Source: an uncultured Bacteroidota bacterium
Lineage (GTDB): Bacteria; Bacteroidota; Bacteroidia; 2-12-FULL-35-15
DNA length: 64,000 nucleotides
Assembly (NCBI GenBank): GCA_903926385.1
Contig: CAIYIS010000015.1
Coordinates: forward strand, 1-64,000
Direction: 5' to 3'
Numbering within the stretch: the first letter of the stretch is position 1; each line of letters starts with the position of its first letter. A program made the translations under genes and the position numbers. Shown here piece after piece: positions 7,027 to 11,165 of this stretch. Below the pieces are notes generated by a model that saw only the letters and a program-made list of their open reading frames with translations, had not been told where the DNA came from and ran no database searches.

Positions 7027-8043
7027 TTATTTCAGTTTTAACTTGCTTAATTTTTTAAAAGCTTGTTTTTCTATTTCGGCTATCTGCTCTAAAATATCAG
7101 CGCATACAATAAAATCTTCCTGACGATTATTTATTCTTCCTTTGTAAATACGCCCCATCTGAACAGCCGACTCTCTCCACAAATCGCCCGATTTGGTAAA
7201 CTCTTCCGAAATTTGAAGTAAGTTATCATTTGGTACAAATGCATTAGCTTGTTCTAAAAAAGCAGCGTACAAAAATCTAAATCCTCCACCACCGGTACCA
7301 ATTTCTTCTTGCATACGCACTATCTGGCCTAAGTATAAACCGGCTTTGCGAGGGCCTAATTTATCTCTCCATTTCAATATTTGACGAGAGGTGTAATTTA
7401 TTCCATCTGTTCCCACAATGCTTCCCGGCAAACGAAGCATCATTACCGATGTGCGCTTAATGCCTTTAATGATGGCTTGTTTCACCATCTGGTCGGTTAC
7501 ATTCTGAACATTTTCCGGAAAATAAACATGTCCTTTAGGTGCTAATGCTCCCTTCGAAAATCTTACTTTTATCATATCTGCTTCCGATATCGTGGTTACC
7601 GATTCCATCACAGGGTCGCTGATAAGGTAATGGTCGTTTTCTTTTCCATACACAATTAAATTATGTGCATTAAAATGAAAACGATATTCGGGTGGAAAAT
7701 AAGGCAGATTGTACACTCCCACCTGGCAGCCCACCGGCACACCTTCTTTTACTTTCTGATCCAGAAATTCTTTTGCCGCCTTTTGATTGCTGAATTTAGC
7801 TCGCGTTACTTTTATGCCTAATGATTTACAAGCCTGACTGAATATCCAGCCGGGCATGGTTCGGTAAGCCACAGCCGGGCCATTGTTTACTGTAACTACC
7901 GGAAGATGTAAATAAAAAATTCCCGACCCCATTCCGAACACCAATGGTTCGGTCATAAAGTCAACTCCGTGATATCGCATCAGGCTGGTAGCAACTCCGT
8001 TTTCGCAATGCGCGGCCTGTATATGTTTAAATTCTTTTTCCAA
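7027..8043 (-). CDS. BtrH N-terminal domain protein
   Basis: The 338-residue soluble protein begins with a BtrH_N-type domain: HCENGVATSLMRYHG, then LVFGMGSGIFY, an HFNAHNLIVYGKEN strand and an HYLISDP strand. The C-terminal half (about 190-330) fits the helical DUF4872-type extension. BtrH transfers an acyl amino acid side chain in butirosin synthesis, so an acyl or peptidyl transfer role is possible, but the substrate here is unknown. The start is TTG at 8043; no ATG precedes the BtrH motif. A TAGTTTTG box lies in the 80-base gap before it (minus strand, 8103-8110). It follows the 132-residue protein and the flavoprotein on the same strand. Confidence 0.75.
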   Translation of the reverse strand: MEKEFKHIQAAHCENGVATSLMRYHGVDFMTEPLVFGMGSGIFYLHLPVVTVNNGPAVAYRTMPGWIFSQACKSLGIKVTRAKFSNQKAAKEFLDQKVKEGVPVGCQVGVYNLPYFPPEYRFHFNAHNLIVYGKENDHYLISDPVMESVTTISEADMIKVRFSKGALAPKGHVYFPENVQNVTDQMVKQAIIKGIKRTSVMMLRLPGSIVGTDGINYTSRQILKWRDKLGPRKAGLYLGQIVRMQEEIGTGGGGFRFLYAAFLEQANAFVPNDNLLQISEEFTKSGDLWRESAVQMGRIYKGRINNRQEDFIVCADILEQIAEIEKQAFKKLSKLKLK

Positions 8044-8102
8044 ACTGTTTATTAATGTTGGTTGATTGTGTAATTGGTTATTATTGTATTGGTTTTATTT
8101 CA

Positions 8103-8110
8103 CAAAACTA
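8103..8110 (-). promoter_or_regulatory. -7 box (TAGTTTTG) before the BtrH-like gene
   Basis: On the minus strand TAGTTTTG matches TAnnTTTG and lies about 60 bases before the TTG start at 8043. It could give this gene a promoter of its own within the trio. Confidence 0.4.
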
Positions 8111-8123
8111 ATGTGAAATCGTT

Positions 8124-8522
8124 TTATCCTTTAAAGTTTTTTAATTCATCCACTGTTATTTCAAAAACTGAAGCGTAAATGTTCAGCTTTTTTTCGCTAA
8201 GCGATTTAAAAACGGATGTTTTTAAATGACGTTTGATGGTAAATTTCCAGAAACCTGTATAGCCCGATAGTAAAGTAAAATTCATCATTTTTAATTCCAT
8301 AAAATAATGAATCGGACTTTTTTCTCCTCTTGCCACTTCGGCTCTGGCTTCTTCGGCTCTTTCTTTTATATCATCCCATGCATTGTCCAGAGCGGCTACT
8401 TTTACCTCCCACCCTTTGCTTAATTCAGTAGTGTATTTTCCGTCCTTGTCTTTTACATACATCAGCTCCCTTGTCATCGAAGCTAAGGCACAATCGTCTT
8501 GAGGAAGTTCTTCTTTTTTCAT
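8124..8522 (-). CDS. Unknown 132-residue protein of the flavoprotein-BtrH trio
   Basis: I do not recognise a family. The protein is soluble, without a signal peptide, and looks mostly helical. An acidic and basic central stretch (WDDIKERAEEARAEVARGEK) is followed by a hydrophobic patch near LSGYTGFWKF and a final basic helix region. It starts 9 bases after the stop of the flavoprotein, so the two are almost certainly co-translated from one transcript. Its position between a halogenase-like enzyme and a BtrH-like protein suggests a small pathway subunit or binding protein, which is inference. Confidence 0.7.
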   Translation of the reverse strand: MKKEELPQDDCALASMTRELMYVKDKDGKYTTELSKGWEVKVAALDNAWDDIKERAEEARAEVARGEKSPIHYFMELKMMNFTLLSGYTGFWKFTIKRHLKTSVFKSLSEKKLNIYASVFEITVDELKNFKG

Positions 8523-8531
8523 CGTGTCAAA

Positions 8532-10205
8532 CTAATTTTTATTGGCTAAAACTATTGAATTAATGTCGGCAGCTATGCTAGCATCATAAGCCAGCCCGTG
8601 CAAATGTCGTTCTTTATTTTCATTTTCCAATGATATGGCATAAGGATCTACATTCATCCTAAGGTCAGTTCCTTTAACCTGATGACTTACTACACGAAAT
8701 ATTTCGGCTGCTATTTTCTCTAATGTTTTTACATTCTCCGAAATCTTTTCGGTTAGCTGTTTGGGGGCAAACTGTGTTTCCATTTCCAACTGAAAATTAC
8801 GAATACACGTTACATCAAACGGGTCGATATATGAGTTTTTAAAAATCTTGTTTTCGAAAGGATGCCAGGCAATAAACAGTTCCTGCATGGCTTTGTTAAG
8901 CTCTCCGAACTTTCGGCCAGTGCTATCATCAGCAGCAAATAATTCTTTGGCTACTTTTAAGTTTGTAAATCCTTTGTTGGTAAATAGCAAACACGGAACA
9001 GCCCAGTAAATAGCCCAATCCCAGCATATCTTTACAAGCATTATCTGAGCGCTATCCATCAATGCATATTTGTTTTGATAAATAGTAATCCAGTTTTCCA
9101 AATGAGAACGGTGAGACTGCTGATACACACTTGTACGAATGCTAATGTCTTCTCCGGCCAGTTCACGAAGTATTAAATCAGACAGCCAGGTATTATTCAT
9201 CGATATGAAATCTGAGCCCGGTGAGTAGAGCGGGTCGAGAAAAGCACCTGCCTCTCCTGTTACTCCCCATCTGTCGGTGGAATAGAACTCTCCCGAGTCG
9301 TGAGCAAAATGTTTAAGCACTCTAAAATCGAGCAACCCCTCCCCTTCTCCTCTTGGTTGAAGCATTTTGTAAGCCAATGGTTCGTTTTTTTGCAACCACA
9401 CCAAGGCTTTTTCGTAGGTATTGATATCTTCGAACGCATGAAAATCGGGATGAGCCACAATGCCAATACTTGTATTCTTCGACCCCAAGGGAATTACCCA
9501 AAGCCAATATCCCTTGTCCATAAAGTGAACGGTGGCGAGGTAACGAATTTTCGGTTCCAGAAAGGTTTTCCATTTCTCGTTTTCCGACCAATCGTTAATA
9601 TCTATTTCACCTTTTAGTCTCCACCAAACCGAATTAGTAGCATGGTCCATTGGTTTCTGAAACTTTAGTTTTCGCTTCAGCAAACTTGCTCTGCCGGTAG
9701 CATCAGCCACCCATCTTGTTTTGGCTGTATATTCCTTCCCATCTTTTTCGTATGTCACCTCGTGCATCTCTGCCTGCAAATCCACTTGCTTGGCTTTGGC
9801 TCCGGTTATCAAAGTGGTGCCTAACTCCTGAGTGAGTTTAGCCAAATAATTTTCGAGTGTTCCTCTGTCCAACTGATGGCTTGGTACTTTTAGCCTGTTA
9901 TAAGGCCCCAGTTCTACTCGTTCGGAAATATCTTGTTTGGTTTCTGTTCTGAAAAAAAATCGTAAACCCTGCTTGGGTAACTCAAATTCGTCCAAATAAT
10001 CCTTTATGCCCAACACCTCCCGCATATAATAAGTAGCGAGTTCTACTGTGGATTCGCCTACTTTATGAGCGGCAGTTGGTGCTGCTGCTGCCATACTTTC
10101 GAGTACGAGTATGCTAATTTCGGGTTTGGCTCTTTTGAGCTGTACCGATAGGGTTAGTCCGGCCAAACCACCCCCTGTGATGATTACATCGTATTCTTTT
10201 TGCAT
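8532..10205 (-). CDS. FAD-dependent oxidoreductase with flavin-halogenase motifs
   Basis: The 557-residue enzyme has the FAD-binding GGGLAG at residues 11-16, a VGEST motif at 49-53 and DATGRAS at about 168-174. Two features recall flavin-dependent halogenases: W234-L-W-V-I-P239 matches the WxWxIP signature, and K78 in PKQGLRF falls where the catalytic lysine of PrnA-type halogenases lies. A GEAGAFLDPLYSPGSDF stretch matches the second FAD region. I chose ATG 10205 because it directly precedes the FAD motif; the TTG further upstream is unsupported. Related halogenase-fold oxidases also occur in pigment clusters, so halogenation is a hypothesis. It heads the trio. Confidence 0.85.
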   Translation of the reverse strand: MQKEYDVIITGGGLAGLTLSVQLKRAKPEISILVLESMAAAAPTAAHKVGESTVELATYYMREVLGIKDYLDEFELPKQGLRFFFRTETKQDISERVELGPYNRLKVPSHQLDRGTLENYLAKLTQELGTTLITGAKAKQVDLQAEMHEVTYEKDGKEYTAKTRWVADATGRASLLKRKLKFQKPMDHATNSVWWRLKGEIDINDWSENEKWKTFLEPKIRYLATVHFMDKGYWLWVIPLGSKNTSIGIVAHPDFHAFEDINTYEKALVWLQKNEPLAYKMLQPRGEGEGLLDFRVLKHFAHDSGEFYSTDRWGVTGEAGAFLDPLYSPGSDFISMNNTWLSDLILRELAGEDISIRTSVYQQSHRSHLENWITIYQNKYALMDSAQIMLVKICWDWAIYWAVPCLLFTNKGFTNLKVAKELFAADDSTGRKFGELNKAMQELFIAWHPFENKIFKNSYIDPFDVTCIRNFQLEMETQFAPKQLTEKISENVKTLEKIAAEIFRVVSHQVKGTDLRMNVDPYAISLENENKERHLHGLAYDASIAADINSIVLANKN

Positions 10206-10286: not shown

Positions 10287-10389
10287 AATTTCAGATTTCA
10301 GATTTCAAATTGAGGGGCCGGAAAGTTAGCCACAGATTCACTGATTAAATTTTAGAATTTTGGGGTTGTAGAATTTCAGAATGAAAAGA
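10287..10389. repeat. Dispersed intergenic module D1, copy 1
   Basis: About 103 bases are nearly identical to 34931-35033. Shared blocks include TTTCAAATTGAG.GGCC, GAAAGTTAGC.ACAG and TTAAATTTTAGAATTTT. A fragment recurs near 35115. It lies just upstream of the 21-bp array and shows no coding signal. Confidence 0.8.
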
Positions 10390-10425
10390 AAGGGAAGAAA
10401 TGGCAGGAAATGGGGTTGGGGTGGT

Positions 10426-10796
10426 GAAAAACATGACATGGAATTAAAAAACATGACATGAAATTAAAAAAACATGACATGCTATTGAAAAAACATGACA
10501 TGCTATTTGAAAAACATGACATGAAATCAAAAAAACATGACATGCTATTTGAAAAACATGACATGGAATTAAAAAAACATGACATGGAAATGTTAAAACC
10601 GGACATGGAATTAAAAAAGTCGGACATGGAAAGTGAAAAGTCGGACATGGAATGATAAAAACCGGACATGCTATTAAAAAAGTCGGACATGGAATGTTAA
10701 AAGTCGGACATGGAAAGTGAAAAGTCGGACATGGAATGATAAAAACCGGACATGCGATTAAAAAAAACGGACATGGAATGTGAAAAGATGGACTTG
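10426..10796. repeat. 21-bp tandem array
   Basis: Eighteen units are recognisable by the word GACATG (last unit GACTTG). The first interval is 20 bases and the following sixteen are exactly 21 bases. Each unit also has an A tract of about 4-8 bases. The unit drifts from an AACATGACATG type (10431-10586) to a GTCGGACATG or ACCGGACATG type (10602-10796). Both strands stay open in one frame because 21 is a multiple of 3, but the predicted heptad peptides look like a by-product. No gene is supported here. Confidence 0.9.
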
Positions 10797-10875
10797 AACG
10801 CGAATTTTAACGAAATAGGACCACGCACAACCCGGCTCATAAGTCCACTGGACTTCTGCCCTGAATTTACGAAAG

Positions 10876-10959
10876 GGCGAGTTCGGAGTGATATCCTAAT
10901 GGTAACAAAGCGAGATGGACTGACTAACTGCACCCGACCCGTGCGAAGTATCCTTTTTT
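10876..10959. repeat. Dispersed intergenic module M, copy 1
   Basis: This block shares GCGAGTTCGGAGTGA, GACTAACTGC.CCCGA and ATCCTTTTT with 25271-25358. Both copies follow a 21-bp-phase array by 80-180 bases. The rest of the gap up to the lpdA terminator (about 10960-11160) is low-complexity sequence with repeated GATTGTTGATTG words and no gene. Confidence 0.7.
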
Positions 10960-11165
10960 TTGGTTCGATGTAAGGAGAAGGAAATGGCACTTCGGCTCCG
11001 CTCAGTGACCGAAGGGGCTAATGGGGAGAGAGAAAAAAAAGATACCGCGCGAGGGCGGGAGAAAGGATTACGAAGGGAGATAAGGTTGGTGCCCGAATGA
11101 TTGTTGATTGGCGATTGTTGATTGATTATTGAGATTTGAGATGGGTTATTGCTGAAAGAAGGAGC

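Follow-up and report, generated by a model that had tools for sequence, protein, structure and literature searches.

Which small molecule do three adjacent genes of an uncultured Bacteroidota bacterium act on, and is the flavoprotein encoded by the first of them a halogenase? This question was raised by the window, a stretch of 64,000 nucleotides that is part of the 77-kb contig C15; the whole genome measures 4.27 Mb and comes in 85 contigs. The original prediction had placed a halogenase-like flavoprotein, an unknown 132-aa protein and a BtrH-like protein in one run and suggested that they could modify a small molecule, for example an aryl pigment. Three intact frames indeed follow one another on the minus strand, from 10205 down to 7027, at the predicted coordinates, and the flavoprotein carries VGEST (residues 49-53), WLWVIP and K78 where they had been located:

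8532..10205, minus strand: flavin-dependent halogenase-like protein, 557 aa; ATG at 10205, stop ends at 8532
10050..10058, minus strand: GES (residues 50-52) of VGEST, the reference point for the lysine register
9972..9974, minus strand: K78, at the register of the flavin halogenase catalytic lysine (GES Glu + 27)
9489..9506, minus strand: WLWVIP (residues 234-239), the WxWxIP motif
9216..9242, minus strand: FLDPLYSPG (residues 322-330), the Fx.Px.Sx.G motif as defined in PMC10377541
8124..8522, minus strand: darG, 132 aa, dialkylresorcinol/flexirubin biosynthesis protein (NF053545, NF053536)
7027..8043, minus strand: darH, 338 aa, TTG start at 8043, BtrH-related acyltransferase (NF053550, BtrH_N, DUF4872)

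The gap between the flavoprotein gene and darG measures 9 bases (8523-8531), that between darG and darH 80 bases. A scan for promoters and terminators at the locus gave no excess over shuffled sequences. Just upstream of the flavoprotein gene, at 10383-10802, lie ~16 copies of a 21-bp unit, AAAAACATGACATGGAATTAA, which is also arrayed on four other contigs (C22:5967-6120, C28:20-131, C41:601-859 and C62:3931-4147); the unit gave 39 matches compared to 0 for a reversed-pattern control, and the ORFs predicted at 10376-10990 are the array read as protein. A phage-defence role of the locus was rejected, since PADLOC gave no match, and a fold search of viral proteins returned superfamily-level matches only.

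Both partners of the flavoprotein could be assigned by NCBIfam. The 132-aa protein does start 9 bases downstream of the flavoprotein gene, as claimed, but can no longer be called unknown: it is DarG, with 182.8 bits against NF053545 (cut-off 170) and 171.7 bits against NF053536 (cut-off 70). In its model (pLDDT 83) a small helical bundle accompanies a long helix, and lambda-repressor-like domains were the only matches in a fold search with it, none of them significant (best E 0.12). The expected BtrH-like partner of the acyl-transfer type contains BtrH_N and DUF4872 domains and is DarH (NF053550, 452.4 bits, cut-off 300). Its Cys13, His127 and Asp143 are kept in at least 97% of 35 sequences, which fits a BtrH-like acyl transfer of the cysteine type, the presumed step. 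Because DarG and DarH both score above curated cut-offs, the trio belongs to flexirubin/dialkylresorcinol biosynthesis. Flexirubin is an orange pigment, and the guess of an aryl pigment was thus correct. The remaining pathway genes were located by a search for aromatic ammonia-lyases and by DarA and DarB profiles at two further places of the genome:

C57:13041-17932: FlxA, FlxB, ketosynthase, ACP and an acyltransferase-like protein
C59:38789-43511: DarA, DarB (together C59:38789-40984), FabZ-like dehydratase and ABC exporter

FlxA reached 846 bits (cut-off 700), FlxB 396 bits (cut-off 340) and DarB 585 bits (cut-off 550), while DarA was matched with E 1.3e-117. In the window and the rest of contig C15, DarG and DarH are the only dar/flx proteins; the earlier statement that the window holds no ketosynthase or carrier protein is therefore true for proteins of this pathway, and the genes in question lie elsewhere in the genome. 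Overall, the pathway genes are unclustered here, on three contigs, whereas they are clustered in close relatives. The dar and flx loci of Chitinophaga pinensis are likewise separate (PMC3992019). Since known pathways are also split, the scattering of the genes does not exclude pathway membership.

We then asked what kind of enzyme the flavoprotein is. The features listed for the halogenase RadH are GxGxxG, Fx.Px.Sx.G, WxWxIP and a catalytic lysine (PMC10377541). All four are present in the flavoprotein and nearly invariant in an alignment of 49 sequences: G11, G13 and G16 of GxGxxG are found in 49/49, 49/49 and 47/49, respectively, W234, W236, I238 and P239 of WxWxIP are identical throughout, and each position of the Fx.Px.Sx.G motif is kept in 47-49 of 48-49 sequences. 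K48-V-G-E-S-T-V, K78 and G80 are also identical in 49/49 relatives, and with this degree of identity chance is excluded as the source of the motifs. A lysine is found 27 residues past the Glu of GES in PltA, ChlB4, Bmp2, CmlS and FasV and in all 49 family members; the lysines at this place in CmlS and PltA are the catalytic ones. Gapped HMMER alignments bring K78 into register with the catalytic lysine of PltA only if a one-residue gap is allowed in the preceding helix; otherwise it is displaced by one residue. The register argument therefore rests on ungapped spacing, and it is by spacing, not by superposition, that the predicted lysine at the catalytic place was recovered.

A profile search against solved structures returned PltA first (4.8e-24), and the nearest sequence matches among solved structures are halogenases. 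Similarly, the best 45 PDB matches of the AlphaFold model (pLDDT 87) are flavin halogenases plus 3nix, a structural-genomics entry without assigned function that is named flavoprotein/dehydrogenase; they rank ahead of kynurenine monooxygenase. Motifs, lysine register and fold thus support the halogenase reading. A second halogenase-fold protein is encoded in the same genome on contig C9 (L031:8127-9368, 413 aa); it is close to 3nix, reaches 158.7 bits of the 900 demanded by the CmlS model and contains IGES, QKKFG, WIWVIP and FLDPVFSSG.

Halogenase-like features can also be found in enzymes of other function, and two such alternatives were considered. The flavoprotein might be a QhpG-like flavin monooxygenase with a halogenase fold that adds a hydroxyl group to the pigment's phenol or resorcinol ring. 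QhpG is halogenase-like in fold, resembles CmlS and retains Trp181, Trp183 and the channel, yet dihydroxylates tryptophan, so WxW is not exclusive to halogenases (PMC7876137). In the Pfam search with the single protein, FAD_binding_3 scored slightly higher (40.7 bits) than Trp_halogenase PF04820 (36.3 bits, cut-off 21), kynurenine monooxygenase comes after the halogenases in the fold search, and the curated cut-offs of both the CmlS model (52.4 bits of 900) and QhpG were missed. However, the complete WxWxIP, Fx.Px.Sx.G and the lysine at the catalytic register are all conserved, and the closest solved sequences are, as mentioned above, halogenases. Moreover, WxWxIP has been proposed to prevent hydroxylation (PMC10696468), which favours halogenation without proving it. 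We therefore regard a hydroxylase as unlikely. Still less likely, in our judgement, is that the flavoprotein belongs to the geranylgeranyl-reductase superfamily and acts on the polyene chain as a reductase or dehydrogenase. This superfamily is the top NCBIfam match and 3nix, with its dehydrogenase name, a close fold match, but the score of 56.8 bits is far below the cut-off of 158.8, and the digeranylgeranylglycerophospholipid reductase model NF041080 gave only 29 bits. In addition, most genomes with DarG have the pathway without a flavoprotein gene. Placement in a reductase clade had been named as a possible outcome; with the exception of 3nix, sequence and fold both place halogenases nearest among the solved structures.

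The link between the flavoprotein and the pathway was examined by a scan of 84,980 genomes, which yielded 47 clear homologues (52-74% identity), all of them in Bacteroidota and nearly all uncultured. At 24 of the 47 loci dar/flx genes occur in the flanks. For the other 23 loci DarG was found elsewhere in the genome in 23/23 cases, compared to 23/296 genomes across the phylum. Conversely, the flavoprotein is missing at E 1e-60 from the other 22 DarG genomes of this 296-genome sample, and from all 295 other phylum genomes at the same threshold. Within the window's own order it is present in 19/36 genomes and DarG in 25/36, and none of the 19 lacks DarG (Fisher p 2e-5, with no correction for relatedness). 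In 17/19 the two are adjacent and on the same strand, with 30 to 1345 bases between them by match coordinates; in 2/19 they lie on different contigs. Since the genome and locus sets overlap, the counts depend on one another. The flavoprotein is not part of the classical darG cluster, a candidate reading that we rejected: no homologue lies within ~10 kb of darG in 15 other Bacteroidota genomes. Taken together, every flavoprotein-bearing genome tested also has DarG or another dar/flx gene, even if unlinked, and most DarG genomes do without the flavoprotein. Therefore, it is an accessory tailoring enzyme, kept only where flexirubin genes exist.

Some relatives, L049, L053, L064 and L066 among them, have the flavoprotein gene within a single flexirubin cluster upstream of darG, in the order FlxA-FlxB-KS-ACP-acyltransferase-flavoprotein-(DUF1702)-darG-darH-...-darA-darB-dehydratase-ABC. 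A DUF1702 protein is encoded immediately after the flavoprotein in 16 relatives, among them L048, the nearest sister (L048:4065-4910; L064:11672-12475). It was dismissed as a required partner, since the window has none; its apparent absence from the genome is weakly shown, the search controls being equally silent. In clustered relatives, two related ~280-aa proteins that match neither Pfam nor NCBIfam are encoded between darH and darA (L064:14241-15071 and L064:15160-16005). One flexirubin cluster contains tandem flavoprotein copies (L049:6637-8340 and 8438-10126; 61% and 68% identity with the copy in the window); the two may differ in substrate or perform a double halogenation. Housekeeping neighbours in some relatives (SUF genes, a chorismate-binding enzyme, isocitrate/isopropylmalate dehydrogenase) give no functional hint. 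Two public MAG contigs titled Chitinophaga pinensis (L073, L084) bear the cluster or the gene. Since L084 coincides with genome G321, which belongs to the window's own order, the label of at least this contig looks wrong. More distant relatives (33-37% identity) occur on plasmids of Janthinobacterium lividum (L127:11989-13587, beside a type I PKS) and Gloeothece verrucosa (L128:11962-13770, beside hpaB). They keep K78, WxWxIP and YSPG or FSPG, and the family therefore extends beyond flexirubin makers.

A further reading is that the trio is unrelated to flexirubin in this organism and is a stranded remnant with a new role. The trio is unlinked to other pathway genes in the window, and the DUF1702 gene that separates the flavoprotein gene from darG in L048 is missing here. 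Against a remnant, all three frames are intact, FlxA, FlxB, DarA, DarB, ketosynthase, ACP and exporter are all encoded elsewhere in the genome, and the flavoprotein is always accompanied by dar/flx genes, as described above. We consider a remnant very improbable.

Based on gene identities, conservation, genome co-occurrence and the match in motifs and fold, we think it reasonably probable that the trio provides the tailoring and joining functions of a flexirubin pathway whose genes occupy at least three places in the genome, and that the flavoprotein is a two-component flavin-dependent halogenase of the polyene headgroup phenol. From the same evidence we infer a reaction, a halide, a substrate stage and a site. 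FlxA of C. pinensis was shown to deaminate tyrosine to 4-coumarate (PMC3992019). FlxA would do the same here, FlxB, ketosynthase and ACP would extend 4-coumarate to an aryl polyene, and DarA and DarB would provide the 2,5-dialkylresorcinol. DarH, as a BtrH-type acyltransferase, could then transfer the aryl-polyene acyl group from its carrier to a resorcinol hydroxyl to give the ester, assisted by DarG, and the ABC exporter would move the product. In the flavoprotein, reduced FAD and O2 would form the C4a-hydroperoxide, which would oxidise the halide to HOX; this would reach K78, which would steer it to the phenol ring of the polyene headgroup, an electron-rich target, with the position ortho to the hydroxyl as the most likely site. 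Some known flexirubins carry chlorine on the polyene ring, where members of this pigment class differ in chlorination (PMC3992019); this makes the phenol ring a likely target. Chlorination of the aryl polyene at its phenol ring is the most likely role of the flavoprotein.

In the open-access literature searched, the papers that name both flexirubin and halogenase assign no halogenase to flexirubin. Pathway and enzyme class are already known; their pairing is new. The predicted enzyme is real and conserved, and probably a flexirubin halogenase. The chances seem to us evenly balanced that it is the founding one, that is, the source in a subset of uncultured Bacteroidota of the chlorinated (or brominated) flexirubins described decades ago, possibly with carrier-bound or finished pigment, and not a free small phenol, as its substrate. 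A conserved, pathway-linked enzyme of the halogenase type makes the question of flexirubin chlorination directly testable. Its gene could serve as a genome marker for halogenated flexirubins, and the enzyme might be used as a biocatalyst on long polyene phenols or dialkylresorcinols. The finding is of specialist interest and no surprise in kind.

Compared to the flexirubin clusters of Flavobacterium johnsoniae and C. pinensis (PMC3992019), this genome shares DarG, DarH, DarA, DarB, FlxA, FlxB, ketosynthase, ACP and ABC exporter, but the genes lie on at least three contigs and a halogenase-like gene adjoins darG. A useful parallel is provided by the xanthomonadin-type aryl polyene clusters of Azoarcus and Xanthomonas, which also combine an aryl polyene pigment with a pathway-encoded halogenase (arcA) and unlinked clusters; in Azoarcus arcA goes with the xanthomonadin part of a dialkylresorcinol hybrid ester pigment (PMC3949708). 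These systems differ in their hydroxybenzoate starter, in the use of bromide (xanthomonadin) and in belonging to Pseudomonadota, and the comparison with arcA is one by description. QhpG, LodB and GoxB are members of the same superfamily as the flavoprotein but act on protein tryptophan, and their profiles gave weak matches (34-41 bits) below curated cut-offs of 240-400. The phenol and pyrrole halogenases PltA, ChlB4, CmlS, CtcP, RadH and PltM share the fold, GxGxxG, GES, WxWxIP and Fx.Px.Sx.G, with the lysine at +27 checked in PltA, ChlB4 and CmlS, at ~16-20% identity in fold alignments. In contrast to these enzymes, the flavoprotein has a conserved YSPG where PltA has FSSG, a C-terminal helical region of its own and an obligate link to dar genes.
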